Below, piece by piece: positions 17,308 to 54,343 of a stretch of 64,000 nt of DNA. Location: assembly GCF_028369105.1 (NCBI RefSeq), contig NZ_JAQNDO010000001.1, positions 4,990,501 through 5,054,500 on the forward strand, written 5' to 3'. The first letter of the stretch is position 1. The number at the start of each line of letters is the position of its first letter. Under the pieces are notes generated by a model. The model saw nothing but the letters and a program-made list of their open reading frames with translations. It had not been told where the DNA came from and did no database searches. This DNA is from Polyangium mundeleinium (GTDB taxonomy: Bacteria > Myxococcota_A > Polyangia > Polyangiales > Polyangiaceae). The translations under genes were made by a program, and so were the position numbers.

Positions 17308-18834
17308 ATGCCCCTCGACGAAGCTGCGCGCGGCCGGATCGCGCCGTACGTATCTAGCCTGACCGACGACGTCTTCGCGCTCTCGGGTTTGCCCGAGGAG
17401 GTGATCGCCGTCCTCTTTGCCTACTACTCGCGCAGCCGCGACGATCTGCGAACGAACCTGGCGCGCTTGCTCACCGACCAGGAGCTCGACGTCGGGGAAG
17501 GCGTGACGACGCGCCCCTCGTTCGGGCTCGCGACGGAGAAGGCGCGCGCGTTCCACGAAAAATGGGTCGTTGGCTACGGACACGCGTCGGTCGCGGAGCA
17601 CGCGGTCGTGCACCTCGCGATCGAGAACGTGAGCATCGTGGCCTCGAAGGTGATCGAGGACCTCCGGCTCGGCTCGTACACCGAGAAGAGCACGCGCTAC
17701 GTCGTCTTCGATCGGAACAGTTTCGTCGACCTGCCCGAGCTCGAAGGGTCGCTCGGACAGACGTACCGGGCCAGCGCGGAGCGGCTCTTCACGACGTACG
17801 TCGATCTCATGGCGCGCGTGATGGATGCGCTTCGCGTGCGCGTGCTCCGGCCGCCGGGCGCGTCGGAGGCGGCGCACGCGGCGGCGATCCGCGCGCATGC
17901 TTGTGATCTTCTGCGCGGGCTCTTACCGGCTGGCACGCGGACGAACCTCGGCCTCACTGCGAATGCGCGCGCGCTCGAAGCGCTGCTCACGAAGATGCTC
18001 TCGCATCCGCTCGCGGAGGTCCGCAACGTCGCGACGTCCATGCATGTGGCTGCGCGCACCGTCACGCCGACCCTGGTCAAGTACGCGGGGCGGAGCGAGC
18101 ATCGGTCCGCGCAGCGCGGCGACGTGGGGGACAAGCTGCGATCGATCTACGATCCCGGTCCCTGGGACGCGAGTGCGACGAATGTTGTCGGGCAACCGGT
18201 GCGGCTCGTGCGGCACGACAAGGACGCGCTGGAGCGGATCGTGCTCGCGCTCGCGTACGAGAGCAGCGAGCCGAACGTGCACGCGCGTGGCCTCACGGAG
18301 GCGATGCGGCATGCGACGTCGCGCGAGCTCGAAGACGTCGTTCGCGCGTCGGTCGCGCGGCGTGGCGCGCACGATCCCGTGCCGCGTGGCTTCGAGGCGA
18401 CGACGATGACGTTCGAGTTGATGCTCGATTACGGCGCGTACCGCGATCTGCAGCGGCACCGCATGCTCCTGCCGGCGACGCAGCGGCTCACGTGCCGGCT
18501 CGGTTTCGAGACGCCCGCGGAGCTCGCGGAGCTCGAGCTCGATCGGGCGTACACTGACGCGATGGTCGCGGCGTGCGATGCGTGGGAGGAGCTCGAGAGC
18601 AAACACCCGCAGGAAGCGCAGTACGCGGTGCCGCTCGGATTCCGCATCCGCACGCTCTGGACGCTCAACCTGCGCGAGCTCTTTCACGTGGTCGAGCTGC
18701 GATCGGCGCGGCAAGGGCACGCGAGCTATCGGCGCATCGCGCAGGGGCTCTTCCGCGCGGCGATTGCGGTGCACCCCTGGCTCGAAGGTCTCGTCCGCGT
18801 CGATCTCGGCGACTACTCATTGTCCCGTGCCTGA
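17308..18834 (+). CDS. Double-length FAD-dependent thymidylate synthase (ThyX-like)
   Basis: A 508-residue protein, about twice the usual ThyX length, made of two ThyX-like halves. The first half has GHASVAEHAVVHLAIENVS (about 91-109) and then GSYTEKSTRYV, but the ThyX RHR triplet is DLR at 118-120. The second half has an intact RHR at 383-385 (LQRHRMLLPATQRLT), but the Ser, Ser and Arg that normally follow are Leu, Arg and Thr. Each half thus keeps what the other lost. ThyX makes dTMP from dUMP using FAD and methylene-tetrahydrofolate, with active sites built between subunits. Either a single composite site or a new function is possible. Assignment to the family is firm; activity is not. Confidence 0.8.
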   Translation: MPLDEAARGRIAPYVSSLTDDVFALSGLPEEVIAVLFAYYSRSRDDLRTNLARLLTDQELDVGEGVTTRPSFGLATEKARAFHEKWVVGYGHASVAEHAVVHLAIENVSIVASKVIEDLRLGSYTEKSTRYVVFDRNSFVDLPELEGSLGQTYRASAERLFTTYVDLMARVMDALRVRVLRPPGASEAAHAAAIRAHACDLLRGLLPAGTRTNLGLTANARALEALLTKMLSHPLAEVRNVATSMHVAARTVTPTLVKYAGRSEHRSAQRGDVGDKLRSIYDPGPWDASATNVVGQPVRLVRHDKDALERIVLALAYESSEPNVHARGLTEAMRHATSRELEDVVRASVARRGAHDPVPRGFEATTMTFELMLDYGAYRDLQRHRMLLPATQRLTCRLGFETPAELAELELDRAYTDAMVAACDAWEELESKHPQEAQYAVPLGFRIRTLWTLNLRELFHVVELRSARQGHASYRRIAQGLFRAAIAVHPWLEGLVRVDLGDYSLSRA

Positions 18835-18836
18835 CT

Positions 18837-18980
18837 GCGCTGTTCCACAGCGCAAATCGATGCGTTTTTGCATCGACCGCATCGCGGTCGATGCACCAAA
18901 GGTCCAGGGCTGGCCCTGGTCCGGGTCGAGGGGCGGACAGCCCCTCGTCGGGTCCGGGGTGAAACCCCGGCGCTACGCTG
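18837..18980 (+). repeat. Multi-hairpin intergenic module, copy 1
   Basis: The gap between thyX and the convergent recN is filled by stem-loops. A first hairpin starts 3 nt after the thyX stop (18837-18853). The four-hairpin module follows: stem GCATCGACCGC (18870-18894), stem CCAGGGC (18904-18919), stem CGAGGGGC with loop GGACA (18927-18947) and stem CCGGGGT (18954-18970), then a short tail CGCTACGCTG. All stems are perfect. It is closest to copy 4 at 53812-53921. It could act as a terminator, but its repeated, covarying structure suggests more. Confidence 0.85.
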
Positions 18981-18992
18981 CAGAGCACCCCC

Positions 18993-20744
18993 TCACGAAG
19001 CGCGACCCTTCGCGCCGCGCTTCGGGCTCGCAGCGGCGGCCACCGAACGCGCCTTCACCTCGTCCAACATCTCGGAGGCTGCCTTCAGTGCGCTCGGACC
19101 GACCTTCGCGCCTGCCAGCATGCGTGCGACTTCGGCGACTCGCTCTTTGCCCTCGACGCGCTTGACGGTGCTCTTCGTGATGGGCCCGTCGACCTGCTTC
19201 GACACCACGAAATGTGCGTCTGCGAAGGCTGCGATCGTGGCGAGGTGCGTGATGCAGAGGACCTGATGGTGGCGCGCTACGTCCGCGATCGCGCGGCCGA
19301 TCTTGTCCGCTACTGCGCCGCCGACGCCGGCGTCCACCTCGTCGAACACGTAGAGCCCTGCCGGCCCTGACTCTGCGAGCGTGCGCTTGAGCGCGAGCAG
19401 CGCGCGCGAGAGCTCGCCGCCCGAGGCGATCTTGCGCAGCGGGCGCGGCTCGATGCCTTTGTTTGGCGCGATGAGGAACTCGACTCGGTCGATGCCGTCG
19501 CGGCCGAGCCGCGCGCCGTCGATGACGAGCTCGGACCTCTCGCCTGAGAGCGGCGCGACGTCCACGATCACGCGCGCGCCGCCCATCCCGAGATCGGCAA
19601 GCTCTCCGCCGATGGATGCGCCGAGCTTCTCGCCGGCTTCGCGGCGCTTCTGTGAGAGCTGCCGCGCGCGCTCTCCCGCCACGCGCAGCAGCCGGTCGCG
19701 CTCGTGCTCCAGTGCTTCGAGCTTCGTCTCCACGTTGCCGAGCCCTTCGAGCTCCGTCGCGATGCGCGACCGCGCCGCGATCACGTCGTCGATCGTGGGC
19801 CCGTGTTGCCGGAGGAGGCCTTCGAGCCGGTACATGCGGTCCTCGATTTCCGAGAGCCGCGATGGGTTTGCCTCGGCGCGCTCGGCGTACCGATCGACCT
19901 CGCGGGCGATCTCTCGAAGCTCGGAGAACAAACCATCGAGTGTGTTCGCTGTTGCTTCGAGGGATGGATCGAGATCCGCGGCGGCGCGGAGATCCTTCGA
20001 GAGCTTCGCGAGCTCGTCGCAGATCGCGTGCTCGCCTTGATCGAGCCGCGCGGCCGCGTGCTCGGTCAGCTCGCGGAGCCGGCCGGCGTGGCGGAGCCGC
20101 TGGCGCTCGGCCGCGAGTTCTTCGAGCTCCCCGGGCCGCGGGGACACGGTGTCGATGCCCTGGAGCTGGAAGCCGAGGAATGCTTCGCGCTCGACGCGGC
20201 CGCGCTCGGCCTCGCGCACCTCGCGGATCTCGGCGACGACCTTTTCAAGCTTCTCGACCTCTGCGGCGAGCGCCTCGCGTGTGGTCGAGAGACGGCCGAA
20301 ACGATCGAGGTAACCGAGGTGCGTCGAGGGATCGGTCAACGCGACGCTCTCGTGTTGCGAGGCGACGTCGCAGAGCTCCGACGCGAGCGCTTGCAGCTCG
20401 CCCGCGGTGCAGAGACGCCCGTTCAGGTACGCGCGCGAGCGGCCGTTTTGCTGCACCACGCGGCGGATGACGAGCTCGCCGCCGGAGGACACGCCGGCTG
20501 CGTCGAGCGCCGTCGCGAGCTGCTCGCTGCCTGTCACGTCGAAGAGCGCCTCGACCTCGGCCTCGTCGGCGCCGGGCCGCACCTGTTCGGCGTTGCCGCG
20601 GCCGCCGAGCACCAGCGAGAGTGCGCCGACGACGATCGACTTGCCCGCGCCGGTCTCGCCGGTGAGCACGTTGAAGCCGGGCTCGAGGCGGAGCTCGAGC
20701 GAATCCATGAGGACGAAGTTCTTGACGCGGAGGGCGACCAGCAC
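18993..20744 (-). CDS. recN: DNA repair protein RecN
   Basis: A 583-residue SMC-like ATPase that holds broken DNA ends during double-strand break repair. It shows Walker A GETGAGKS near residue 31, a long central coiled coil, the ABC signature ASGGELSRALLALKR and Walker B GLYVFDEVDAGVGG, followed by the ITHLATIAAFAD motif typical of RecN. The start is a GTG at 20744. It is the last gene of a minus-strand run that also contains the AgmX-type protein, an unknown protein and a DUF1232 protein. Length and motifs are standard. Confidence 0.95.
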   Translation of the reverse strand: MLVALRVKNFVLMDSLELRLEPGFNVLTGETGAGKSIVVGALSLVLGGRGNAEQVRPGADEAEVEALFDVTGSEQLATALDAAGVSSGGELVIRRVVQQNGRSRAYLNGRLCTAGELQALASELCDVASQHESVALTDPSTHLGYLDRFGRLSTTREALAAEVEKLEKVVAEIREVREAERGRVEREAFLGFQLQGIDTVSPRPGELEELAAERQRLRHAGRLRELTEHAAARLDQGEHAICDELAKLSKDLRAAADLDPSLEATANTLDGLFSELREIAREVDRYAERAEANPSRLSEIEDRMYRLEGLLRQHGPTIDDVIAARSRIATELEGLGNVETKLEALEHERDRLLRVAGERARQLSQKRREAGEKLGASIGGELADLGMGGARVIVDVAPLSGERSELVIDGARLGRDGIDRVEFLIAPNKGIEPRPLRKIASGGELSRALLALKRTLAESGPAGLYVFDEVDAGVGGAVADKIGRAIADVARHHQVLCITHLATIAAFADAHFVVSKQVDGPITKSTVKRVEGKERVAEVARMLAGAKVGPSALKAASEMLDEVKARSVAAAASPKRGAKGRAS

Positions 20745-20799
20745 GGGGCCGGGAGGATAAAGAACGGAACGAGAAACGTCGACGCGTTCTACGCGGAGA

Positions 20800-22263
20800 T
20801 CAGCGGATCGTGACGGACTTGCTCACCGTCACGGAATCACCGGAGAAGGGCGGGACCGAGGCGCTGCGGAACGCTGCGGCGATGCAGCCTCCGGTCGGCG
20901 TGCCGGCGAACGGCGGGCCGTTGACCTGCGCCTTCGTGGCGCGGCCGGACGGGGCGAACGTGACGCTCACGCGGGCTGTGCCGCTCGGGTCGCCAGGTGC
21001 CTTGCAGCCTGAGGCCCTGCCGGCGGCGGCGCCGAGCGCGGAGGCCGCGGCGCTCCTGCTGAACTCGTTGCCGCCGCCCGAGGGCGCCTCGGGCACGGCG
21101 GGCTTGTTGTTCGCCGCGGCCATCGCGGCTGCGAGATCCTGCGTCTTGTTCCCCGCCGCCGTTTCGGCGGGTTTTGCGTCGGTCTTCTCCGGCGGTTTGT
21201 CTCCGCCCGCCGCCGGTTTGTCCCGGCCGTCGCTTTTCGGCGCTGCGTCGGCCGCGCCGGCGCGTTTGTCCGCGGGGGCCTCCGTGCCTGCCTTCGCCGC
21301 TGCGGCCGGATCACTCGGCGCCGGGGTGTTCGTGTTCGGCGCGGGCGCCTGGTTCGTGGCCCCCGGTTGCAGGGCGAGCGGCGCGTCGTTCCCGGTGCCG
21401 GGCGGTGTGGTCGTCGACTCGGTAGCGACCGCGGCCGTCGGCTCCTCGGACGTCGTCGACGCGCGTTGTACCAGGAAAAACACGAGGCCCGCGAGGGCCG
21501 CGACGAGCACGACGCCGATCCCGAGACGCTTGCGATCGAGCTTTCCGGTCGCGGCCGCGACGTCGACGTCGAGATCGATCGCGTCCATCGACGACTTCGT
21601 CATTGGCGCCGGCGGCGCCGTGATGGGTGGCGCGGCCAGGAAGAGCGAACCTCCGCTGTTTGCCGCGTCGGCTTTTCCTGCGGCCGGATCGGCCGGCTTC
21701 GGCGCGGTCGTGAGATCCTTGCCGAGCGCCGAGATCCCGAGCGCCGAGACGTCGGGCGCCACGAGCGGCGTGAGCCCCTGGTTGCTGAAGAGGCTGCTGC
21801 TCAGGTTGAACAGATCCTCGTCGACGATCTTCCGGCTGCGGCTGATCTCGCGCGGATCGGGCCGCGAGCCGCGCTGGGCCGCCTTGTCCGAGGGTTTTTC
21901 CGGGGCGGCTTCGGGCTGCGCGTGCTTGGCCTCGTGCCGGTCGACGTCGAAGACCTCGAAGAACGAGGGCCTGTCGTCGTCGTCGTCCTTCAACGTCGGC
22001 GTGCGCTTCGTCGCGGCCGGCATTGGCGTGGCGTTTTTCGCCATCGATGGCTGCGAGGCTGCTTTCGCGCGCGGCGCCGGCGGCGGCGGCGGGATCTTCA
22101 CGTTGTCGTCCGCGCCTGCGAGCGCGGGCGGCGGCACCGTCACCACCTCGGCCGACACGTCGAGGTCGAAGACGCTCGTCCGCTCGGGGATCGATTTCAT
22201 CGTCTCTGGCGGGGGTTCCACGTTGCCCGCTGCCGTCTTCGTGTCGTCTTGTTTCTTGCTCAT
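20800..22263 (-). CDS. AgmX/PglI C-terminal domain protein, single-pass
   Basis: A 487-residue protein with a Pro/Asp-rich cytoplasmic N-terminal region, one membrane span (about 247-266, LGIGVVLVAALAGLVFFLVQ), a long Ala/Pro/Lys linker and a small C-terminal domain. In that domain a Cys pair (SGCKAPGD and GGCIAAAF) and the VSVTFAPSGRATKA segment match the AgmX/PglI C-terminal type found in myxobacterial gliding and envelope proteins, itself TonB-like. A Cys pair could form a disulfide. The start ATG overlaps the preceding stop (ATGA). Role in motility or envelope energy transfer is inferred from the domain only. Confidence 0.75.
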   Translation of the reverse strand: MSKKQDDTKTAAGNVEPPPETMKSIPERTSVFDLDVSAEVVTVPPPALAGADDNVKIPPPPPAPRAKAASQPSMAKNATPMPAATKRTPTLKDDDDDRPSFFEVFDVDRHEAKHAQPEAAPEKPSDKAAQRGSRPDPREISRSRKIVDEDLFNLSSSLFSNQGLTPLVAPDVSALGISALGKDLTTAPKPADPAAGKADAANSGGSLFLAAPPITAPPAPMTKSSMDAIDLDVDVAAATGKLDRKRLGIGVVLVAALAGLVFFLVQRASTTSEEPTAAVATESTTTPPGTGNDAPLALQPGATNQAPAPNTNTPAPSDPAAAAKAGTEAPADKRAGAADAAPKSDGRDKPAAGGDKPPEKTDAKPAETAAGNKTQDLAAAMAAANNKPAVPEAPSGGGNEFSRSAAASALGAAAGRASGCKAPGDPSGTARVSVTFAPSGRATKAQVNGPPFAGTPTGGCIAAAFRSASVPPFSGDSVTVSKSVTIR

Positions 22264-23093
22264 CGTGGCAGAACCTCGCGGTCGTCGGGTCCGCCCGGAT
22301 CCCCCGAGAGCCCGTAGATCCAGTGCTTTTCGAGCCAATCGAGCGCGACGTCCGCGCGGCGGATCGTCGCGTCGACGGCCATCACTTGGGGATCCGGCGC
22401 GCCGGCGTCCTTCGCGTAGGCGCGCGCGTACAGGATCCATGTCGAGAGTTCGTAGTGGTGCAGGAGCGGTCCGAAACGATGCGTGTCGAAACGCGCGATC
22501 CTCTCGGCCGCTTCCTCGACGGAGGGCGCGCGCACGAGCGTGGTGCTCGCGTCGAAGAGCAGCTCGCGCAGATCCTCGAACGCCTTGTCAGGATCACGCG
22601 ACACCTCGTCGAGCATCGCTTCGAACGCGTCTTCCGGCATGCCAGCTTGCAGCGCGGCCTCCGCCATCGCGGGCACCTGCGTTTCGAGGAACGCGGCGTC
22701 CGGCGCGTGGCCGAGCAAGCGACCGACGAGGTAGAGATCAAACGCGCTCGCGATCGACTCGCCGAGCAGGAGCGCGTCGGGGCTCTGGCTCGCCGTCGCT
22801 CCGAGCGCGTCGAGCGCGCGGCGCGTGACGTGGTGCCAGCCCGCGTGCATCACCACGTCTGCGGGGATGGCGTCGCTGTCGAGGACGTCGCCAGGCTGGT
22901 CGGGCGACCAGAACGTGAGATTGAGGAAGAGCGCTCGATCCCAGCGTGCCTCCGGTGTCCCGGGTTTCGGCACGAGGAAGGTGACGTGGTCACGCACGAG
23001 CGCACGCTTGAGCTCGGCGTAGAGACCGATGTGTCGGTACGAGCGCTCGTCTTCGATGCGGAGATTTTCGAGCGTAAAACGTTGGAGTCGCAC
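22260..23093 (-). CDS. Conserved-looking protein of unknown function
   Basis: A 277-residue, mostly helical soluble protein with no signal peptide. Notable segments are MHAGWHHVTRRALD and the helical SPDALLLGESIASAFDLYLVGRLLG (shown here only in part). The start is GTG 23093, 12 nt after the DUF1232 gene, and it overlaps the AgmX-type gene by 4 nt, so all three should be co-translated. A Glu and His-containing helix pair could bind metal, but no family is recognised. Confidence 0.65.
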   Translation of the reverse strand: MRLQRFTLENLRIEDERSYRHIGLYAELKRALVRDHVTFLVPKPGTPEARWDRALFLNLTFWSPDQPGDVLDSDAIPADVVMHAGWHHVTRRALDALGATASQSPDALLLGESIASAFDLYLVGRLLGHAPDAAFLETQVPAMAEAALQAGMPEDAFEAMLDEVSRDPDKAFEDLRELLFDASTTLVRAPSVEEAAERIARFDTHRFGPLLHHYELSTWILYARAYAKDAGAPDPQVMAVDATIRRADVALDWLEKHWIYGLSGDPGGPDDREVLPR

Positions 23094-23105
23094 GGGAACC
23101 CGCGT

Positions 23106-23480
23106 TCAGGCTACGCGGACATCGGCTCCGGATCGAGGCCCACGCACGTCCTCCACGATTTCCGATCGGGGCTCGTGGTACCGGCCGAGTTGACGGTGGA
23201 GGATCACCCGGAAGAGGAGCACCACGCCCACGTCGTCGATCCAGGTGATGAAAGGTACGGCGTCGGGCACGAGATCCAGCGGCCAGACGCAGTAAACCAC
23301 CGACAGAACGACGAGCGCCTTGGCCCAGAGCGCGGCTTCCCGGTCGCGGAGCAGCCGCCAAGCCGCTGGCGCATCCCGGAGGAGCGGCACGAGCGCGAGC
23401 CCGCGAGCCTTTCCGGAGACCTTCTTGCCTTCGAGCTTCTGCGGGCGCAGGTCGGTGGTTTTTTTCACGACGGCCAACAT
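23106..23480 (-). CDS. DUF1232 (YkvA-like) small membrane protein
   Basis: A 124-residue protein with the DUF1232 core VYCVWPLDLVPDAVPFITW followed by DDVGVVLLF, the signature of YkvA-type membrane proteins. The frame is open upstream to 23606; the ATG at 23480 is chosen because it begins just before the conserved region. It is the first gene of the minus-strand run ending in recN. Function of the family is unknown. Confidence 0.8.
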   Translation of the reverse strand: MLAVVKKTTDLRPQKLEGKKVSGKARGLALVPLLRDAPAAWRLLRDREAALWAKALVVLSVVYCVWPLDLVPDAVPFITWIDDVGVVLLFRVILHRQLGRYHEPRSEIVEDVRGPRSGADVRVA

Positions 23481-23626
23481 GATTCCGCTGCGCGCGGCCG
23501 CAAGGGGCGGGGGCAGGATCGCCGCGGTGCGACGCTTGAAAGTCCGTGCTGGTCGGGCATGATGCCGGTCCGGCCTTCGCCCGGCCTTTGCCGCGGCGTG
23601 GGGCATCTTCGAGGAGGCATGTCTTC

Positions 23627-24853
23627 ATGATCCGGCTGCGGTCTTTCCTTCCGTTCGTGCTCGCGCTCGCTCCCCTGACCGTAGGCTGCAAGAAGGAGGA
23701 GCCGCCCGCGCCCGCGCCGGAGGCGAAGCCCTCTGCGGCGATGCTGCCGAGCGGGAAGGGCAAGCTGCCGCTGCGCACGCCGATCGCCCCCATCCCGAAG
23801 TTCGACCCGCAGGCGATGAAGAACTACCGCCTCGAGGTTTGTTACTTCGGTACGCTCACTCTGCGTCAAGCGCGTGACGCGTACCTCGGGAGCCTCGGCA
23901 AGGACGAGCCGAGCGAGAAGAAGATCCCGAGCTTCGGCATCCCCGGGGCGTCGCTGCCGCCGGCTCCGCCCACGCTCGTGCCGCCGAAGCCCGGTGGCTC
24001 CGCTGCGCCCTCCGCGGGCCCCGTCGCCTCCGCGGCACCACGCGCTTCCGCCGCGCCTGGCAACAGCGCGTTCGCAGGCCGCAAGATGGCCGACATGGGC
24101 ATGCGCGCTCCGCACGAGCGCAACGCGCGGGCGTGCACCGTCGCCGCCGATCTCAAGGAGCCGGCGATGCCCGACGTCGACGCGGCGCTCATGACGTTCG
24201 CCCCGTTCTCGCTGGAGCTCAGCCGCAACATCGCCGCGGCCAGCGTGTACTACCAGCGCGAGGAGTACACGAAGGACAAGTTCGAGCGCGGCAAGGAGCT
24301 GCACAAGAAGCTCGTCGCCGACTTTGCCAAGCTCGACGAGAACGCCGACAAACTCGGCAGCGCGATCGCCGCGTGGCACAAGGAGCACCCGGTCGACGCG
24401 GCGAAGCTCGACGAGGGCGAGCGGCTCGTGCTCACGGCCTACGACAGGGCGCGCGGGCTCGTCCTGTCGGTGCTCGCGAAGAAGATCGACACGGCGGCCT
24501 TCAAGGAGGGCGTCGCGGCGCTCGCGAAGGACATCGAGGCCATCAAGACGTTCGGCACGAACAACCCGAACGATCCCTGGGCGAGGATCACCGTGCCGCC
24601 CTTGAGCGCGTTCCAGAAGGCCGCGGAAGAGGCCCAGGCGAAGATCAGCGACAAGGGGATCGAGCCCGACGGCTTCCTCCCGCTGGTCAACGGGTTCACC
24701 TCCGTGATCGAGGCGAAGCACCGCGCCCTCTCGCGCGCGCTCACTGCGAAGGGCGAGGTCGTCGAGCCGAAGGCGGGGCCGCCCACGCGGCGGATCCCGA
24801 CGCCGGGGCAGCAGGTCGAGCACCCCGACGATCACGCCGGTCACGCGCATTAG
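23627..24853 (+). CDS. DUF3829-type lipoprotein
   Basis: A 408-residue protein with a lipoprotein signal (LTVGC, about residues 17-21). An Ala/Pro-rich linker (about 105-150) follows, then a helical domain resembling DUF3829 (YiiG-like): KNYRLEVCYFG, LMTFAPFSLELSRNI and YYQREEYTKDKF. The ATG is preceded by GAGGAGG. The C-terminus is His/Asp-rich (HPDDHAGHAH) and may bind metal. It ends against a triple-hairpin terminator shared with glgA. Function unknown. Confidence 0.75.
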   Translation: MIRLRSFLPFVLALAPLTVGCKKEEPPAPAPEAKPSAAMLPSGKGKLPLRTPIAPIPKFDPQAMKNYRLEVCYFGTLTLRQARDAYLGSLGKDEPSEKKIPSFGIPGASLPPAPPTLVPPKPGGSAAPSAGPVASAAPRASAAPGNSAFAGRKMADMGMRAPHERNARACTVAADLKEPAMPDVDAALMTFAPFSLELSRNIAAASVYYQREEYTKDKFERGKELHKKLVADFAKLDENADKLGSAIAAWHKEHPVDAAKLDEGERLVLTAYDRARGLVLSVLAKKIDTAAFKEGVAALAKDIEAIKTFGTNNPNDPWARITVPPLSAFQKAAEEAQAKISDKGIEPDGFLPLVNGFTSVIEAKHRALSRALTAKGEVVEPKAGPPTRRIPTPGQQVEHPDDHAGHAH

Positions 24854-24857
24854 TCCC

Positions 24858-24942
24858 GAGGGGGACGCCTCGCGTCCCCCTCTCGTCCGGGCAAAGCCCG
24901 GCCGATTCACCCCCTCGAGGGAGCTCGCTTTGCGAGCTCCCT
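24858..24942. terminator. Three consecutive perfect hairpins between convergent genes
   Basis: Three stem-loops fill the gap between the DUF3829 gene and glgA: stem GAGGGGGACGC (24858-24882, 11 bp, loop CTC), stem CCGGGC (24887-24901, loop AAA) and stem AGGGAGCTCGC (24918-24942, 11 bp, loop TTT). Each is perfectly paired and symmetric, so it can stop transcription from both sides. The middle one resembles the last hairpin of the repeat modules elsewhere in the window. Confidence 0.75.
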
Positions 24943-24955
24943 GCTCACCACGAGC

Positions 24956-26404
24956 TCAGCGTTCTCCGCGATGCCGTGAGATGGCGAGCCGGTACATCGC
25001 CTCGTACTGGCGGCTCGCGTAATCCCAGCCAAACGGCTTTTTCATCGCCCGCCTCTGCATCGAGCGGAAGTGCTCGGGGTGCTCGCGGTAGATCCACGCC
25101 GCTTCGAGCACCGTGTCGGCAAGCACGTCGGCCGAGAGATCCAGGAACTTGAAGCCCGTCGCCATGTGCTCGACCGTATCGTCGAGCCCGCCCACCGCGC
25201 GCACGATGGGCAGCGTACCGTACCGCTGGCTGTAGAGCTGGTTCAGCCCGCAAGGCTCGTAGCGCGAGGGCATCACGAAGAGATCCGAGCCCGCCTCGAT
25301 GCGGTGCGCGAGCGCGTCGTTCATACCGATGTGCGCGCGGAATCGATCCGTCGAGTGGCTGAGCCGCGTGAAAAGATCCTCCGCCCAGCTCTCGCCCGAT
25401 CCGAGCACCACGACCTGCACGTCTCGCTGGAGCAGCGTCCCGAGCGCGCCCGCGAAGATGTCGATGCCCTTCTGGTGCACGAGCCGGCTGATGAGGCCGA
25501 TGATCGGTACGTCGGGGCGAACCGGGAGCCCCATCTCGCGCTGCAGCTCGGCCTTGCAGAAGGCCTTGCCTTGCAGATCGTCGGCGTCGAAATGCGCGGG
25601 GAGGTGTTTGTCCGTCGCGGGGTTCCAGATCTCGTCGTCGATCCCGTTCAGGATGCCGATCACATCACCGCCGCGCGCGCGCAAGTCGCCTTCGAGCCCG
25701 TGCCCTCCCTCGCTCGTCTGGATCTCCTGCGCGTACCGCGGCGACACCGTCGAGAGCATCGTCGAGAAGTTGATGCCGCCTTTCAGCAGGTTCAGCCGAT
25801 CGTAGGACTCGAGCGCGCGGTGGTGGAAGACGTCCCAGCCGAGGCCGGTCTGGTAGAGTTCGTTTTTGTCGAACCAGCCCTGATAACCCATGTTGTGGAT
25901 CGTCAGGATCGACGCGGCCCCGCCGAGCGGCGAACGGGCGTCGAGGGTCTTCATGTACACAGGCACGAGGCACGTCGGCCAGTCGTGCACGTGCACGACG
26001 TCGGGGATGAACCCGAGCACGCTCGCGAGACGAAGCGCCCCGCGCGAGAGGAACGTGAAGCGCGCGAGGTTGTCGCGGTAATCCCCGTTCGAATCGTTGT
26101 AGATGCCGCTGCGATCGTAGAGCTCGTCGTGCTCGAGCAGGTAGACGCGCGACGTGCTCTCGCCGAGCCGCGCCTCCCACACCGCGCCCCACGCCTCACT
26201 GCCGCCGACGGGCACGCCGAGCGAGATCGGCAGCCGTTTGGCCGGGTGTTTCTTCGCGATGCGGTAGCGCGGCATGACGGTGCGTACGTCGTGGCCTCGC
26301 GCCGCGAGGGCGATGGGGAGCGCGCCGGCTACGTCCGCCAGGCCTCCCGTCTTGGCGAAAGGGACGCACTCGGAGACGACGTTGAGGATGCGGAGGCGGG
26401 GCAT
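24956..26404 (-). CDS. glgA: Glycogen synthase (ADP-glucose type, GT5)
   Basis: A 482-residue GT-B enzyme that extends alpha-1,4-glucan from ADP-glucose. It shows the GT5 start motif KTGGLADVAGALP near residue 18, VVHVHDWPT, NGIDDEIWNP, SRLVHQKGID and the catalytic EPCGLNQLYSQRYG. The length is normal. The ATG at 26404 is used. Its stop lies beside the triple hairpin, and the upstream boxR-type gene ends 4 nt before its start, so some read-through co-expression is possible, although a functional link is not evident. Confidence 0.95.
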   Translation of the reverse strand: MPRLRILNVVSECVPFAKTGGLADVAGALPIALAARGHDVRTVMPRYRIAKKHPAKRLPISLGVPVGGSEAWGAVWEARLGESTSRVYLLEHDELYDRSGIYNDSNGDYRDNLARFTFLSRGALRLASVLGFIPDVVHVHDWPTCLVPVYMKTLDARSPLGGAASILTIHNMGYQGWFDKNELYQTGLGWDVFHHRALESYDRLNLLKGGINFSTMLSTVSPRYAQEIQTSEGGHGLEGDLRARGGDVIGILNGIDDEIWNPATDKHLPAHFDADDLQGKAFCKAELQREMGLPVRPDVPIIGLISRLVHQKGIDIFAGALGTLLQRDVQVVVLGSGESWAEDLFTRLSHSTDRFRAHIGMNDALAHRIEAGSDLFVMPSRYEPCGLNQLYSQRYGTLPIVRAVGGLDDTVEHMATGFKFLDLSADVLADTVLEAAWIYREHPEHFRSMQRRAMKKPFGWDYASRQYEAMYRLAISRHRGER

Positions 26405-26408
26405 GCGT

Positions 26409-27254
26409 TCAACCGACCGGCGGTGCCGGCAGCCTACCACGGCTCGCCGTGTTGACGATCTTCACAAGCCGGTCGATCGCACGTTCGAGGCCAAGCGCCG
26501 ACGTGTCGATGATGTGGGCCGCGCGCTCGTAGAGGGCACGTCGCGCGCGCAGGATCGCGCGAAGCTCCTCCATCGCCGCCGGCCGGCTCGCCATCGGCCG
26601 CGCGTCGCCTTGGTCGATCACGCGCTGGAAGTGATCCTCGGGACGCGCGCGCAGCCACACGGTCACGGCCTCGCGACAGAGAAGTTCGAACGTCTCGTGA
26701 TCGGTCACGAGGCTGCCGCTCGTCGCGACGATCCCACGATCGCCACGCGTGACGAGCCGCGTGAGCTCCTCGCGTTCGAGCCTGCGGAAGTAGGCCGTGC
26801 CGTGCATCTCGAAGATTTCAGTGAGACTCATGCCGGTCCGCGTCACGACGAGGCTGTCGAGCTCCACGAAGGGCAACCCGATCCGGGCCGCCGCGCGGCT
26901 CCCCAGCGTGGTTTTTCCCGCCCCGCGCAGGCCGAGCAGCGCCACGAGCGGGCCCTTCACGGCTGCGCGCGGCGCCTCCGTGGGCGCGTCTGCGAGCAGC
27001 GCCGACGCCGACGTGTCGAGCGCGCGCGCGATCGCGTCGAGACGAACCACGGACACGTTCGCCTTGCCGCCCTCGACGAGCACCAGAAACCGCTCGCTCA
27101 CGCCCGACGCGACCCCGAGATCCCGGAGCGTCAAACCCGCCGCGCGCCGCCGCTCGCGCACCCGCTCGCCGAGCACCCGCAGGAGCGGCGAGCCCACGCC
27201 TTCCGGTTCGTCTGCGCCCGCGTCGGGCTTCTTTCGGGCGGCCACGTCATGCAC
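26409..27254 (-). CDS. boxR: BoxR/BzdR-type regulator (HTH fused to shikimate kinase-like domain)
   Basis: A 281-residue fusion. An XRE-type helix-turn-helix domain (about 25-85, LTLRDLGVASGVSERFL) is joined to a shikimate kinase-like domain with P-loop GLRGAGKTT (about 108-116), the GIVATSGSLV segment and the lid ARPMASRP. This architecture is known for BzdR and BoxR, repressors of anaerobic and aerobic benzoate pathways that sense benzoyl-CoA through the kinase-like domain. It is divergent from boxC-boxB, as expected for BoxR. The start is GTG at 27254, with another GTG at 27245; both lie inside or next to the candidate operator, so self-repression is likely. Confidence 0.85.
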   Translation of the reverse strand: MHDVAARKKPDAGADEPEGVGSPLLRVLGERVRERRRAAGLTLRDLGVASGVSERFLVLVEGGKANVSVVRLDAIARALDTSASALLADAPTEAPRAAVKGPLVALLGLRGAGKTTLGSRAAARIGLPFVELDSLVVTRTGMSLTEIFEMHGTAYFRRLEREELTRLVTRGDRGIVATSGSLVTDHETFELLCREAVTVWLRARPEDHFQRVIDQGDARPMASRPAAMEELRAILRARRALYERAAHIIDTSALGLERAIDRLVKIVNTASRGRLPAPPVG

Positions 27255-27297
27255 TATATTTCATGAGCGCGGCAAAGGCACGCAGTATATTGCTTGA
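27250..27297. promoter_or_regulatory. Candidate BoxR operator: 17-bp direct repeat, 31-bp spacing
   Basis: Between boxR and boxC lie TGCACTATATTTCATGA (27250-27266) and CGCAGTATATTGCTTGA (27281-27297), 13 of 17 bases identical, with starts 31 bp apart, about three helix turns. They are the AT-richest bases in the neighbourhood and overlap the boxR start codon. The position between a repressor and its likely target operon, plus same-face spacing, supports an operator. TGCA-type elements are known for BzdR; exact equivalence is inference. A TATATT at 27286-27291 might also be a -10 for boxC. Confidence 0.6.
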
Positions 27298-27330
27298 CAC
27301 CCTCCCGCCCCGGTGATGGAGTTTTCGGCG

Positions 27331-29006
27331 ATGGGCATCGAGAGTGAAAGCGGCGGGGCCAAGGCGCCCGCCATCCGTTTCGAGACACATCCGAGCCGCT
27401 ACAAGCACTGGAAGCTGTCGTTCGACGGCGCGATCGCGCGGCTCGTGATGGATGTGGTCGAGGAGGCGCCGATGCGCCCCGGCTACACGCTGAAGCTGAA
27501 CAGCTACGACCTCGGCGTGGACATCGAGCTCGCGGACGCGGTGGAGCGGCTGCGCTTCGAGCACCCCGAGGTGAAGGTCGTGATCGTCACGAGCGGGCAG
27601 CCGCGCATCTTCTGCGCCGGCGCGAACATCTACATGCTCGGCTCGTCGACGCACGCCTTCAAGGTCAACTTCTGCAAGTACACGAACGAGACGCGCCTCT
27701 CGCTCGAAGCCGCCTGCGCCGAGAGCGACCAGCACTACGTGGCCGCGCTGAACGGCGTGGCCTCGGGCGGCGGCTACGAGCTCGCGCTCGCGTGCGAGAA
27801 GATCCTGCTCTGCGACGATGGATCGAGCGCGGTCTCGTTCCCGGAGACGCCGCTGCTCGCCGTGCTCCCGGGCACGGGCGGGCTCACGCGCCTCGTGGAC
27901 AAGCGCAAGGTCCGCCGCGATCTCGCCGACGTGTTCAGCACGCTCGCCGAGGGCGTTCGCGGCAAGCGCGCCGAGGAGTGGCGCCTCGTCGATCGTTCGA
28001 TCCCGAAGAGCCGCTTCGATCAGGTGGTGATCGAGGAGGCAAACGCGATCGCCGCGCGCACGAAGGACAAGCAGGGCCCGGGCGTCACGCTCGCCCCGCT
28101 CGACGTGAAGCGCTCCGAGGACGGCAGCAAGATCAAGTCCGAGTACAAGTACGTCACGCTCGTCATCGACAGCGCGACGCGCGTCGCCGAGATCGAGGTG
28201 CGCGCGCCCGAGGGCACGCCGGAGACGACGGTGGAGGCGCTCCACAAGAGCGGCTCCGACGTGTGGTCGCTGCGCGTGTTCCGCGAGCTCGACGACGCGC
28301 TGCTCGACCTGCGCTTCAACCACCCGGAGGCGGGCCTCGTGCTGCTCCGGACGAAGGGCGATCCCGAGGCCGTTCGCGCCGCGGATCGCGCGCTCCACGC
28401 GCTGCAGGACGACTGGTTCGCCCGCGAGATCCTGCTCAAGATGCGCCGCACCCTGAAGCGCCTGGATCTCACGGCGCGCAGCGTGTTCTCGCTCGTCGAG
28501 CCCGGCTCGTGTTTCGCGGGCAGCCTCTTCGAGCTGGCCCTCGCCGGCGACCGGACCTACATGCTCGACGGCGGCGACGAGCCGCCCGTGATCGGCCTCT
28601 CGCCGCTGAACTTCGGCCCGTTCCCGATGCCGAACGGCCTCACGCGTCTGGAGACGCGGTTCCTGCACGATCCTTCGGCCGTGAAGCGTCTGGAAGGACA
28701 AACGGAGCTGCTCGACGCGGACGCCGCCAAGAAGCTCGGGCTCGTGACGTTCACGCCCGACGAGATGGACTGGGACGACGAGGTGCGGATCGCGGTCGAG
28801 GAGCGCGCGAGCCTGTCGCCCGACGCGCTGACCGGGATGGAGGCCTCGCTGCGATTCGCGGGGCCCGAGACGCTGGAGACGAAGATCTTCGGGCGCCTCT
28901 CGGCCTGGCAAAACTGGATCTTCCAGCGCCCGAATGCGGTCGGCGAGCGGGGCGCGCTCACGATGTACGGCCGGCCCGAGCGACCCGAATTCGACTGGAG
29001 GCGAAC

Positions 29007-29010
<4 letters not shown>
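27331..29010 (+). CDS. boxC: BoxC, 2,3-epoxybenzoyl-CoA dihydrolase
   Basis: A 559-residue crotonase-superfamily enzyme of BoxC size. It opens the ring of 2,3-epoxybenzoyl-CoA, using two waters, to give 3,4-dehydroadipyl-CoA semialdehyde and formate. Motifs seen include FCAGANIYMLGSSTHAFKVN (about residues 94-113), NGVASGGGYELALACE (oxyanion hole) and FPETPLLAVLPGTGGL. A second crotonase-like half occupies about 330-540. The ATG at 27331 follows TGGAG at about 9 nt; ATG 27316 and GTG 27313 lack a clear site. Its stop overlaps the boxB GTG (GTGA). Confidence 0.93.
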
Positions 29011-30446
<1,436 letters not shown>

Positions 30447-30475
30447 GCTGAGCGTTTCGTGTTGGGGCCGCTGCG

Positions 30476-30786
30476 CCGGGGCGCTGCCCCGGTCCCCGCG
30501 GGGGGCTGTCCGCCCCCTCGACCCCGGACCAGCCAGGGGCTGGACCCAGGTTTGAAAAACTGCGCGGTGCGCAGTTTTTCAAACAGGCCGACGAAGAACC
30601 CAGGTTGCCAGCAGAACCCGCAGCGCGGCTGTCTTGGTCGGCAACGCCGCTGTCGGTCTTGACCGGGCCTGTTCGATGAACTGCGCACCGCGCAGTTCAT
30701 CGAGCTTGGGTCCAGCCCCTGGCTGGTCCAGGTGCAGGGGCGGACAGCCCCTGCTGGGGCCTGGGGCAAAGCCCCAGCGCAGCGCC
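30476..30786. repeat. 311-bp composite hairpin element, copy 2 (inverted partner at 34796)
   Basis: The whole 356-bp gap between boxB and the PP2C gene is this element. It is two four-hairpin modules facing away from a centre of about 90 bp. The left module (minus orientation) has stems at 30476-30492, 30501-30517, 30529-30543 and a 16-bp perfect stem at 30550-30584. The right module (plus orientation) has stems at 30673-30703 (14 bp), 30712-30726, 30734-30754 (loop GGACA) and 30761-30777. Read on the opposite strand it matches 34796-35106 at about 95%. No ORF of note; no transposase inside. Confidence 0.9.
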
Positions 30787-30802
30787 TTCAAAACGAAACC
30801 AC

Positions 30803-32074
30803 CTACGACGTGTAAGGCGTGACGCCTTGGGCTTCGAAAAGCTCGGCGCGTGCTTCGGAGAGCTCGGTGTTCACCGTGCGCAGGCGCTGCGAGAGGCCCT
30901 GCACGAAGCTCCAGAGCAGCTTCACGGCGAGCACTGGCTCGCGTCGCATGACGTTCATCATGTCTGTTCGTGTGATGACCATCGTGCGTACGGGCTCGAG
31001 GGCCCGCACGGTGGCCGAGCGCCGCGAGTCGTCGACGAGGCCCATCTCGCCGAAGTATCCGCCTGTCATGATCGACGTGATGGCGACGTTGTCCTTCTCG
31101 ACGGCCACCCGCCCTCGCAGGATCACGTAGAGATCCTCGCCTGGCTCGCCCTCGGTCACGATCGCTGCGCCGATCGGGTGGCTGCGCACGTCCGAGATCG
31201 CCAGGATCTCGGCCTGCTCGCGGTAGGTCAGGTGCATGAAGAGCGGGATGCCGCGCAGCGCCTCGTGTTTCGTGAGCGCCTCTGGCTCCGGCTCCTCTGC
31301 TGTCGCGCCGTGGAACGAGAGCACGAGCGCCGTGATGTTGTCGCGGCCGCCTCGCTCGTTCGCGACGTCGACGAGCGCTTCTGCGAGGTTGTCCGGTACG
31401 CCGGCGCAGAGCGCGGGGACCTCCTCGTCCTCGATGTACCCGTAGAGGCCGTCGCTGCAGATCAGGAAGAGATCGCCCGGCATGATTTCCACGAGCAGCG
31501 TGTCGACCTGCACCGACGCCTGCGTCCCCACGGCCCGCGTGAGCACGCTGCGAAGGGCGCTCACCTTGGCTTGCTCCTTCGTCATCGTGCCGTTCTTGAT
31601 CGAGGCCGCGACGATCGTGTGGTCCTCGGTCAGCCGGTTCGCCACGCCTTGCCGCAGGAGGTAGGCGCGGCTGTCGCCCACGTGCCCGACGACGCCGCGA
31701 TCTCCTGCGACCGCGAAGAGCACCATCGTCGTGCCCATGCCGCGGAGCTTGGGGTCGTTCTCGGCCATGGCCCAGAGGTCCGCGCATGCGGCCTGGATTG
31801 CCGAGGCGACGAGCTCCTGCGCCGCGACGCGGTTCTCCTGGGAGGGGTTTGCCGCGAAGCGCGTGAGCACGTCGACCCGATCGGCCACGTAGGCCCGCGC
31901 GACGTCGACTGCGCGGCGCGACGCGACGTCGCCGGCTGCCTGGCCGCCCATGCCGTCGGCGACGATGTACAGGCCGAGGTCGGGGTCTGCGAGGTGGCTG
32001 TCCTCGTTGCGCTTGCGCTTCCGGCCGACGTGCGTCGCGGCCTGCGGCGAAACCGAGAGGGGCATGCCCCGCAT
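30803..32074 (-). CDS. PP2C-type protein phosphatase fused to a cyclic-nucleotide-binding domain
   Basis: A 423-residue protein. The N-terminal PP2C domain (about 10-255) carries the metal motifs RNEDSH, VADGMGG (about 38-44), VGHVGDSRAYL, CSDGLYGYI and RGGRDNITALV. The C-terminal half (about 280-400) is a cNMP-binding fold with GEDLYVILRGRVAVEK and GGYFGEMGLVDDSRRSATVRA, the phosphate-binding cassette. It should remove phosphate from Ser/Thr targets, perhaps gated by a cyclic nucleotide. With several Hanks kinases in the window it is a natural antagonist, but no partner is adjacent. A small membrane protein gene lies 52 nt upstream on the same strand. Confidence 0.9.
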   Translation of the reverse strand: MRGMPLSVSPQAATHVGRKRKRNEDSHLADPDLGLYIVADGMGGQAAGDVASRRAVDVARAYVADRVDVLTRFAANPSQENRVAAQELVASAIQAACADLWAMAENDPKLRGMGTTMVLFAVAGDRGVVGHVGDSRAYLLRQGVANRLTEDHTIVAASIKNGTMTKEQAKVSALRSVLTRAVGTQASVQVDTLLVEIMPGDLFLICSDGLYGYIEDEEVPALCAGVPDNLAEALVDVANERGGRDNITALVLSFHGATAEEPEPEALTKHEALRGIPLFMHLTYREQAEILAISDVRSHPIGAAIVTEGEPGEDLYVILRGRVAVEKDNVAITSIMTGGYFGEMGLVDDSRRSATVRALEPVRTMVITRTDMMNVMRREPVLAVKLLWSFVQGLSQRLRTVNTELSEARAELFEAQGVTPYTS

Positions 32075-32126
32075 CCTAGTCGAGGCGAACGCTCCTTCGG
32101 AAGGGGCGGAACGTGGCGCTCCTCGG

Positions 32127-32609
32127 TCAAACCGTGGGGGCGCGTCGCTGGAACGGGAGAAACCCGATCGCGAGTGCGAGCCCGAAGATCACGTGTTCGA
32201 GGATCGCGGGACCCACGGGCGCGCTCGTCGCGAGTGCGCCGAGTCCCGCCGCGGGCAGGACAACCCGGTACATGACGAACCAGACGATCACGCCGTACGC
32301 CGCGCCGAACACGAGCGTGCGGAACACGTTCGCGCCGAGGACGAGCAAGCCGAACAGCGCGCCCCAGCCGATCGAGACGGCGAAATGCAGGAGGATGCCG
32401 AGCACCACGGCGCCCGCGTCGAAGCCGGGCGCGAACGCGCGTTCGGCGAGGAACGGCGCCGAGGCTCCCTTGAACACGACCCACGGGTCGCCCCCGCGCG
32501 CGACCGCCGACAGGAGCCCGTACAGGCTCAGCACGATCCCGCCGAAAATGCCCGCGATCACGCCGCCCGAGAGCGCGATGACCGTCCTCTGTCTCCCCCT
32601 CGCCGCCAT
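32127..32609 (-). CDS. Small multi-pass membrane protein
   Basis: A 160-residue protein with about four membrane segments (VIALSGGVIAGIFGGIVLSL, AGAVVLGILLHFAVSIGWG, LVFGAAYGVIVWFVMYRVV, EHVIFGLALAIGFLPF). No signal peptide or known family is evident. It lies upstream of the PP2C gene on the same strand and divergent from the 32722 gene. Confidence 0.65.
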   Translation of the reverse strand: MAARGRQRTVIALSGGVIAGIFGGIVLSLYGLLSAVARGGDPWVVFKGASAPFLAERAFAPGFDAGAVVLGILLHFAVSIGWGALFGLLVLGANVFRTLVFGAAYGVIVWFVMYRVVLPAAGLGALATSAPVGPAILEHVIFGLALAIGFLPFQRRAPTV

Positions 32610-32721
32610 GTAGGTCCCGTGGCGCCAAGGGCTTGCATGTCAACCGCGGGCCTCCTGTCGCAATCGGGCGAGCTCGGCGTCTCTGCCTTGACGCCGGCCG
32701 GTGGCTCCCGATCATCCGTCC

Positions 32722-34482: not shown

Positions 34483-34531
34483 CAGGATTCCCCGCACCCG
34501 CACGCGGTGGCGCATGGCGCGCGCCGCGCAT

Positions 34532-34796
34532 CGTTGCGCGAGCGACGCCCACCTCCTGGCGGTCGCCCCGGAACCGTTGCGCAAGGCGCGGCCACGCCGT
34601 GGCCGAGGGTGCGGAAACGTTGCGCAAGCGGCGTCCAGGTCCTGGAAGTGCGCTCGGAAACGTTGCGCGAGCGGCGATCACCTCATGGCGGTGGGCTCGG
34701 CAACGTTACGCGACCGGCATCCCTGTCGCGGCTGCGCCTCGCGCAACGATGCTGCACCGTCGTCCATCCCGTGCGGCGCCCTCGCGCAACGTTGCG
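34532..34796. repeat. Tandem array, exact 43-bp period, about six units
   Basis: Six units and part of a seventh start at 34532, 34575, 34618, 34661, 34704, 34747 and 34790, each exactly 43 bp apart. Each opens with a core like CGTTGCGCGAGCGGCG, preceded by GGAAA or GCAA, so the unit boundary is palindromic (GCAACGTTGC). The rest of each unit is variable, and copies diverge towards both ends. The period is not a multiple of three and the strand frames are not conserved, so it is not a protein repeat. The last unit runs directly into copy 3 of the hairpin element. Confidence 0.85.
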
Positions 34797-35106
34797 GCGC
34801 TGTACTGGGGCTTTGCCCCAGGCCCCAGCAGGGGCTGTCCGCCCCTGCACCCGGACCAGCCAGGGGCTGGACCCAAGCTCGATGAACTGCGCGGTGCGCA
34901 GCTCATCGAACAGGCCCGGTCAAGACCGACAGCGGCGTTGCCGACCAAGACAGCCGCGCTGCGGGTTCGGCTGGCGACCAGGGTTGTTCGTCGGCCTGTT
35001 TGAAAAACTGCGCGGAGCGCAGTTTTTCAACCCTGGGTCCAGCCCCTGGCTGGTCCGGGGTCGAGGGGGCGGACAGCCCCCCGCGGGGTCCGGGGCGGCG
35101 CCCCGG
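34796..35106. repeat. 311-bp composite hairpin element, copy 3 (inverted partner of 30476)
   Basis: Inverted and about 95% identical to 30476-30786. The left module (minus orientation) has stems at 34805-34821, 34828-34848, 34856-34870 and 34879-34909. The right module (plus orientation) has stems at 35000-35030, 35039-35053, 35065-35081 (loop GGACA) and 35090-35106. One base change in the 34879-34909 stem is A-C on one strand but a paired G-U on the other. It fills the gap up to 19 bp from the stop of the next, convergent gene. Confidence 0.9.
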
Positions 35107-35124
35107 TCCGGTCCGCTTCGGGCC

Positions 35125-53811: not shown

Positions 53812-53921
53812 CAGCGTCTCGCCGGGGTTTCACCCCGGGCCCGACGAGGGGCTATCCGCCCCTCGACCCGGACCAGGCACGGCCTGGACCGAGGGTGCAT
53901 CGACCGCGATGCGGTCGATGC
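53812..53921 (-). repeat. Multi-hairpin intergenic module, copy 4
   Basis: Minus-oriented module between the unknown gene at 53954 and the CpsB-type gene. Stems: 53822-53838, 53845-53865 (loop TATCC, the complement of GGATA), 53873-53887 and 53897-53921 (11 bp, same stem as copy 1). It is nearest to copy 1 (18870-18980). It lies 33 nt beyond the stop of the 53954 gene, so on the minus strand its first hairpin follows that gene. Confidence 0.85.
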
Positions 53922-53953
53922 AGAGAAGAGTGGAAGGGCTGTGGAGCCCCCTC

Positions 53954-54343
53954 TCAGAGGGCGCGGGTGAGGATCTTCGCGATTTCGAGATCCGTCAGGC
54001 AGCCGTCGGAGCCCTTGGCGAAGACACACGCGAGGGTGACGACGCTGTTGTCGAGCACGACGGAAGGGGCGCCCTCCTTCTGGTTCGTGACGACGATGCG
54101 CTTGACGCCGTCGCGGACGGCCTCCTTGCCAAGCTCGTCGACGCAGATGACGCGGAAGGCGTTGGCGAGCTTGCGGACGCCGAGGTGCTGGACGTTCTTC
54201 AGCGCAGCCTCGTCCGTCTCGAAGGTCGGCCAGTCGACGTCGACGACGATGGGGGCGCCCGCGACGTCCTGGATGTCTTTTTGCTCGCCCGGAAGCCAGG
54301 ACTCCTTCGCTTCCTTGATGAGCCGCTTTTCGATGAGTCCCAT
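53954..54343 (-). CDS. Small conserved-looking soluble protein
   Basis: A 129-residue protein beginning MGLIEKRLIKEAKESWLPGE. The rest is a mixed alpha/beta domain with NVQHLGVRKLANAFRVICVD and two Cys. It is rich in acidic and basic residues and has no signal. No family is recognised. A copy of the hairpin module lies just beyond its stop. It is divergent from the roadblock-like gene. Confidence 0.7.
   Translation of the reverse strand: MGLIEKRLIKEAKESWLPGEQKDIQDVAGAPIVVDVDWPTFETDEAALKNVQHLGVRKLANAFRVICVDELGKEAVRDGVKRIVVTNQKEGAPSVVLDNSVVTLACVFAKGSDGCLTDLEIAKILTRAL

Follow-up and report, generated by a model that had tools for sequence, protein, structure and literature searches.

Four-hairpin modules of Polyangium as probable building blocks of miniature transposable elements and as targets of a Tn5-like insertion sequence

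Introduction

A module of four hairpins recurs in a 64,000-nucleotide stretch of the Polyangium mundeleinium genome (hereafter the window, meaning this whole stretch), with stems that change in sequence from copy to copy while their pairing is kept. This raises the question of whether such a repeat is an RNA under selection, as proposed in a preliminary description made from the sequence of the window, or DNA that spreads by other means. Here we follow the module from the window to the whole genus, and we argue, with a probability of about 0.7, that it is the building block of genus-specific miniature transposable elements moved by a Tn5-like insertion sequence (IS), which itself inserts into the modules.

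Six modules at four loci of the window

Reading and folding of the six window copies showed that each module consists of four stem-loops, H1 to H4. The six modules lie at four loci, where they were first placed, and the sequence readings agree on this with the matches of a covariance model (R1) that covers H2-H4. In the window R1 recovered six strong copies, scoring 65-98 bits (E between 1.5e-16 and 1.6e-10), with H2-H4 at 18901-18971(+), 30475-30546(-), 30709-30778(+), 34804-34873(-), 35036-35107(+) and 53821-53890(-); they match by construction, since all six are among the rows from which R1 was built. Of the 15 matches listed, the next best scores 27.8 bits and is copy 1 read on its reverse strand; the R1 scan gave no seventh strong copy in the window. 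Folding z-scores ranged from -5.5 to -7.1 in five copies and were -2.0 for the sixth, folded with its first hairpin cut off. No Rfam family reached its gathering score, in agreement with the preliminary description, which had recognised none.

H1 has a stem of 12-15 bp with a 3-nt loop in the window copies, somewhat narrower than the 11 to 16 bp first given, and one of these stems (34879-34909) contains a mismatch. H2 carries a constant T.T mismatch (GG-T-CCA../..TGG-T-CC), and the stem of H4 measures 6-7 bp. The alignment bears out that the H3 loop is GGACA in five of the six copies and GGATA in the other. The account of the H3 stem itself stands in part: the version assigned to the copies other than the first and fourth, GCAGGGGC, is found in two of them, but the copies at 30475 and 35036 read GGGGGC/GCCCCC with mismatches beyond.

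Two loci hold single modules and two hold doubles, all delimited by reading, folding and R1. The first single occupies 18869..18971 on the plus strand (H1 18869-18895, H2 18901-18922, H3 18927-18947 with loop GGACA, H4 18954-18970), and the second, the copy with loop GGATA, occupies 53821..53923 on the minus strand (H1 53897-53923). Both doubles had been correctly seen to contain two copies, but their arrangement, missed at first, is inverted rather than tandem, with H1 inside, H4 outside and a core of ~85 bp between the arms. In pair 1, the left arm (30475..30588, minus strand) runs H4-H3-H2-H1 on the plus strand with H1 at 30551-30583, followed by the core (30589..30672, from the sequence reading) and by the right arm (30673..30778, plus strand), which starts with H1 at 30673-30703 and continues with H2-H4. 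Pair 2 is built likewise, from a left arm at 34804..34913 (minus strand, H1 34879-34909), a core read at 34914..34995 and a right arm at 34996..35107 (plus strand, H1 35000-35030, then H2-H4). Beside pair 2, at 34527-34795 of the window, lies an array of several diverged units around AACGTTGCGCGAGCGGCG, which is present in one relative (G003) too.

A large family restricted to one genus

The family comprises ~280 copies in the 13.25-Mb P. mundeleinium genome. Its H3 motif, GGGGYGGAYARCCCC (15 bases, 1 mismatch), occurs at 286 places in this genome vs 6 for the reversed pattern, and R1 gave at least 150 matches. Within 100 regions of the same genome, each picked because a module was present, 222 modules resolve into 86 inverted pairs and 50 singles (136 units). 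Assuming 300 copies of 110 bp, modules make up ~0.25% of the genome and, if copy number is taken as a rough guide, possibly a few percent of its intergenic DNA.

We label the P. mundeleinium genome G000 and the other Polyangium genomes G001-G005. With stricter filters, R1 matched all six Polyangium genomes and none of 53 other relatives (59 genomes), with at least 85 modules in G004. A pattern scan of named genomes found at least 120 stretches, picked by a single-type H4 pattern, and all 80 that were listed belong to Polyangium. No module match was obtained in phage, plasmid or viral-contig collections. Copies with identical surroundings were removed before counting, which reduced 492 modules to 483.

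A resident Tn5-like insertion sequence that inserts into modules

Outside H4 of long pairs we first noticed a further sequence, CTGAGCATGGGTCTCATC, termed here terminal repeat 1, which is found at 60 places in the P. mundeleinium genome vs 3 for the control. Four pairs of this repeat are spaced exactly 1,504 bp, and each encloses a transposase of 475 amino acids. In the one copy scanned, the transposase contains the domains Tnp_DNA_bind, DDE_Tnp_1 and Dimer_Tnp_Tn5, matches NF033590 (E 1.4e-75) and matches the Tn5 structure (4.5e-36). By these domains, its terminal inverted repeats and its 9-bp target duplication, the 1,504-bp IS belongs to the IS4 family and is Tn5/IS50-like; it may already bear a name. 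The end of IS50 starts with CTGA. Our IS shares with IS50/Tn5 the transposase domains, a terminal repeat starting with CTGA and the 9-bp duplication, but differs in its length of 1,504 bp and in inserting nearly only into one repeat family. Matches to it occur in five of the six Polyangium genomes, G004 having none; full-length copies are confined to G000 and G002, and in the draft genome G003 the IS matches are contig ends.

The target preference of the IS is strong, as 18 of 20 near-identical copies lie in modules (3/4 in G000, 12/13 in G003 and 3/3 in G002). Insertions were counted by hand as right ends, leaving out the diverged matches L401, L404 and L392 and the left ends L394, L397 and L414; some right ends scored low because the stored modules stop at H2 and the ends read into H1, and these were placed by eye from their flanks. 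Sixteen of the 18 insertions interrupt H2, one lies in H3 (L400, which probably represents the same insertion event as L414) and one spans H3 to H2 (L368), a rearranged copy in which the stretch between has been lost and which has no duplication. The insertions outside modules are L366 and L394+L406, and diverged relatives of the IS (L388, L389, L393) lie outside modules as well. Target duplications are complete (9/9) at L367, L369, L371, L394+L406 and L387 and reach 8/9 at L366. The element at L371 measures 2,090 bp (L371:338-2427, C1:6314037-6316126), is bounded by the IS repeats and sits in H2 of a module, with a 497-amino-acid frame without Pfam match in the place of the transposase. Near dnaA lie two module-free elements of 80 bp (L373 and L374, at C1:11488554 and 11522982) that carry a variant form of terminal repeat 1.

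IS ends on the outside of some module pairs

The same IS ends are found outside some modules at a favoured distance. Terminal repeat 1 peaks 31 nt outside H4, where 30 of 475 flanks match at 11 or more of 18 positions and the reversed control gives 0; within 26-36 nt of H4 the counts are 58 vs 12 in the control. L042 (1,011 bp) has perfect repeats with CCGGCCAGG on each side, a 9/9 duplication, and L422 (367 bp, in G003) has a 10/10 duplication and sits in a palindrome with a 10-bp stem, palindrome runs as long as this being found at 0.03% of random places. Further pairs are duplicated at 8/9 (L426) and 7/9 (L309). A 1,033-bp chimera, L370, joins a full arm and core on its left to the final 164 bp of the IS (88%) on its right, with the terminal repeat at both ends and no visible duplication.

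Such ends are a minority. Both terminal repeats are recognisable (at least 12/18) in 6 of 169 pairs, namely L042 and L309, duplicated as above, and L050, L082, L111 and L188, where only 1-3 of 9 positions agree. A further set of 20 pairs from G003, selected for their good match to pair 1, contains three with at least 13/18 at both ends, among them the duplicated L422 and L426. Beyond ~11 nt from H4 most outer ends carry no conserved sequence; at pair 1 of the window a weak match by eye, CTGAGCGTTTCGTGTTGG at 30448..30466 (plus strand), may be a decayed terminal repeat 1 outside H4. Since most pairs have no recognisable IS ends, descent of all pairs from the IS is an extrapolation. At the six insertion sites outside modules, a palindrome at the target is clear for L042 and L422 and is not for L366, L394+L406, L426 and L309. 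L042 and L422 are inserted centrally in CCCCTCTCC..GGAGAGGGG-like palindromes, which are perhaps another dispersed repeat or terminators.

The scarcity of recognisable ends is also what would be expected if the modules were an older, independent repeat, and the Tn5-like IS and the IS5-like elements described below were secondary parasites that sometimes captured modules. This explanation gains from G004, which has modules and no IS match, and from the association of the module with two unrelated terminal repeats. It fits poorly with the favoured spacing of the IS repeat outside H4, a place different from the H2/H3 insertion points, and with L042 and L422, where a whole pair is bounded by near-intact IS ends and target duplications. 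We regard it as the strongest of the alternatives and still as unlikely.

A second terminal repeat and IS5-like miniature elements

A different repeat, terminal repeat 2 (GAGGGTGTTCCACA), bounds 129-bp elements that lack the module, with identical CTNAG at each side in seven of the nine read (L381 and L383 differ). Ten such module-free elements (L375-L383 and L345) lie on contig C1 of G000, at 3380366, 4672667, 5568662, 1984185, 2226913, 5511378, 10165931, 10203786, 7675711 and 9757318, most of them flanked left and right by the same TNA/CTNAG; their CTNAG target can take in a stop codon, TGA or TAA. Elements of 147-168 bp that combine the module with repeat 2 are found in G000 and in loci of its relatives, and four of six have the same TNA on each side (L002 and L004 differ). 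Repeat 2 lies 21 nt outside H4 in 17 of 20 good matches.

Both singles of the window carry decayed forms of this repeat. To the left of the first, CTGTTCCACAGCG at 18840..18852 (plus strand) matches intact copies imperfectly by eye, as does its right counterpart at about 18975-18994, GAGGGGGTGCTCTGCAGCG on the reverse strand. Beside the second single, CTGAGAGGGGGCTCCACA on the reverse strand, with two mismatches, lies at 53940..53957 (C1:5044440-5044457). A terminal repeat together with a TNA duplication is what we take to be the rule of the IS5 family, and by this rule the repeat-2 miniature elements would be IS5-like. In the fetched loci, a part of the genome, no IS5-like transposase lay between two repeats 2.

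Gain, loss and exchange at orthologous sites

Orthologous sites in the other Polyangium genomes differ in occupancy. At 18834-18993, G001 has no element and the two stop codons abut as TGATCA, G003 has a variant single, G004 and G005 have pairs, and G002 is unreadable there. The site of pair 2 (34.5-35.1 kb) is occupied in G000 and G003 and empty in the four others; that at 53.8 kb is likewise occupied in G000 and G003, with three genomes empty and one unread. At 44.75 kb G002 alone of five genomes has a pair, with CTAG on each side; in the other four the stops overlap there as CTAG. From presence and absence at these sites it follows that they are gained or lost.

The site of pair 1 (30451-30803) is occupied in all six genomes by elements of differing sequence, G001 having a single and the other five a pair. 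Pair 1 shares 75% identity with its G003 orthologue vs 95.5% with pair 2 of its own genome, the latter over 311 bp in inverted orientation and including the core, while the gene ends flanking pair 1 are 94-96% identical. Pair 2 is 93% identical to its G003 orthologue and up to 95.7% to its best paralogue, without sign of exchange. The comparison indicates that element content has been swapped at least at one old site, that at 30.4 kb. We read the copies as mobile DNA because of their presence and absence, the repeats at fixed distances, the target duplications, the matching IS and this exchange of content.

Placement behind genes and covariation of the stems

The next question is whether the modules could nevertheless be 3'-end RNA elements under selection, such as bidirectional terminators or stabilisers, spread by transposition and kept because genes use them. 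Their placement, based on genes called with a purpose-written codon-bias script in place of a published caller, speaks for such a use. None of 314 units in the genus lies inside a gene; 170 of the 273 placed units are between convergent genes, 92 between tandem and 11 between divergent genes, with 41 more at sequence edges, and in the background, the gene adjacencies of 224 kb of the P. mundeleinium genome, the three classes number 25, 95 and 26, respectively (chi-square p 9e-19). Singles are enriched in these counts, because the stretches from named genomes were picked by a single-type H4 pattern. The distance to the flanking stop has a median of 21-22 bp (quartiles 13-35), and in tandem settings the upstream stop is the nearer one in 80 of 92 units. 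The near-perfect stems and the one site occupied in all six genomes by differing sequences also favour an RNA function.

Other observations weigh against it. Within 18700-35300 the hairpins lack a following T tract: a terminator scan of this part gave 13 matches vs 9.0 expected, none in the hairpins, the one match within an element being weak and in the core of pair 1 (the copy at 53.8 kb lies outside the scanned part). Between tandem genes, singles occur in both orientations (24 vs 14), the family is restricted to one genus, and sites are empty in relatives, down to the abutting stops of G001.

The covariation of the stems is genuine. In an alignment fitted to the model, with 106 distinct but related rows, 98.6% of cells pair vs 89.1% in shuffles, and cells with a double change number 230 vs 81, a value reached by 0 of 500 shuffles; slid controls fall far below the real alignment. 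Copies throughout the genome thus covary beyond chance on the strongest measures, as the preliminary description had suggested from six copies. Counts by pair are less decisive, as pairs with a double change number 8 vs 6.8 in shuffles, a level that 40 of 500 shuffles reach; for further pair types the numbers are 16 vs 13.8, reached by 23 of 500. H1 exists with 38 distinct 5' strands, and all its 12 positions are paired in 402 of 477 scored copies.

The kind of change is informative. Variable pairs mostly swap whole, C-G to T-A or C-G to G-C, and wobble pairs (G.U or U.G) occupy 12 of 2314 cells; the loop-closing pair is C-G in 60 rows, U-A in 45 and U-G in 1 for H4, and C-G in 76, U-A in 29 and U-G in 1 for H3. 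When unique stems are counted and H3 is trimmed to the five inner pairs, G.T is not clearly commoner than A.C (20 vs 13). The pooled count runs the opposite way (G.T 50, A.C 150, p 8e-13), but 133 of the A.C come from H3, in which one subfamily is in shifted register. Scarce wobble and whole swaps are what palindromic DNA that stays in register would be expected to show, and the pattern may be compatible with selection at the RNA level too, without demonstrating any. The step from compensating changes to selection on an RNA fold, taken in the preliminary description, is therefore unsupported in view of the whole-pair swaps, the few wobble pairs and the behaviour as mobile DNA. A high-copy repeat with perfect covariation, the case cautions, need not be a selected RNA. 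A selected 3'-end RNA element appears improbable to us as the primary nature of the module, and a terminator or stabiliser role may coexist with that of a mobile element.

Two further readings are less credible still. The high copy number, palindromes, inverted pairs and extragenic location would suit a classical REP/BIME family spread by a Y1 tyrosine transposase of the REP-associated type (RAYT), and the modules, with over 100 copies in alternating orientations, are like REP/BIME sequences as presented in Nunvar 2010 (PMC2817692). According to that study, RAYTs are always flanked by two inverted REPs and REPs measure 20-40 nt; here, by comparison, the units measure ~110 and ~310 bp and have DDE-type ends and duplications. 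Y1_Tnp matches are limited to three of the six genomes, with none in the own genome, G002 and G004, and 28.6 kb around Y1 genes contain one module (E <= 0.05), near the end of the L437 contig. This reading was dropped as very unlikely, because the own genome has no Y1_Tnp and the Y1 genes of the relatives are not flanked by modules. The Y1-type transposases lie at G003:C165:65272, G001:C42:2448 and C35:3881, and G005:C74:3078.

Finally, the origin-distal half of the chromosome (dnaA is at C1:11.65 Mb) holds 88% of the 150 best copies, and their density climbs towards the point opposite dnaA, as matS-like sites organising the terminus half would, but units far longer than a protein binding site that are gained and lost between species make this scarcely credible, and a similar gradient may hold for mobile elements at large.

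A possible mechanism and its relation to known systems

Returning to miniature elements moved by a Tn5-like IS, the paired modules would be inverted arms of elements that end, wherever the outer ends are preserved, in the terminal repeats of the IS, and the IS transposase most likely moves, or moved, the pairs in trans. Some singles sit in a second miniature element, the putatively IS5-like one with its other terminal repeat and TNA duplications. Each miniature element landing behind a gene would add two harmless landing pads for the IS, and recombination among the many copies would swap arms at old sites; such arm exchange would preserve perfect stems and give changes the appearance of double compensation. 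The position behind stop codons would reflect survival, with perhaps some preference for palindromes such as terminators added, a weakly supported idea given two clear palindromic targets in six. Put together, we tentatively propose self-made safe harbours, in which a Tn5-like IS might mobilise derivatives whose arms are its own preferred target, the arms being captured by a second, unrelated element and swapped by recombination at fixed sites; this fuller scheme is possible rather than probable.

ERIC and bcr1 of Bacillus cereus are bacterial miniature elements, the latter with a conserved predicted RNA fold. Correia and RUP are named as miniature elements of DDE transposons in PMC2817692. 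Like these four, the elements described here are short, non-autonomous and extragenic and have terminal repeats; they differ in the transposon families involved and in their four-hairpin paired arms. We know of no self-targeting IS among elements of this type.

The nearest parallel is found in Tobes and Pareja 2006 (PMC1525189), where REPs are targeted by insertion sequences of five families, including the IS4-family ISRm22, whose copies in Sinorhizobium meliloti are in REPs in 10/10 cases by the table and in nine by the text, and where REPs are often located between convergent genes. Both cases have high-copy extragenic palindromes used as target by an IS4-family IS, but here the target is a four-hairpin unit of ~110 bp, often in inverted pairs, and, unlike in the ISRm22/REP case, some pairs bear the repeats of the targeting IS, so that target and derivative are one. 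The kind is therefore known, as REP-like targets of insertion sequences, and the combination is new to us; literature searches on repeats, miniature elements and insertion sequences of this type in myxobacteria or Polyangium returned nothing relevant. The combination bears on why REP-like IS targets persist and spread: target, miniature derivative and autonomous element coexist in a single genus for which several genome assemblies are available, and target choice, trans-mobilisation and exchange between copies are thereby directly testable.

Variant modules and cargo

Some units depart from the common form. In L170, L154 and L093 the module is a variant in which H3 is lengthened by an extra hairpin, GGGGCGTAGCTCGGCTTGCCGAGCGTAGCCCC. 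Long pairs carry extra DNA, with minisatellites seen by eye in L042, L117 and L126, and at L119:9825-10427 a gene for a HAD-like hydrolase and a minisatellite lie between two arms, as cargo.
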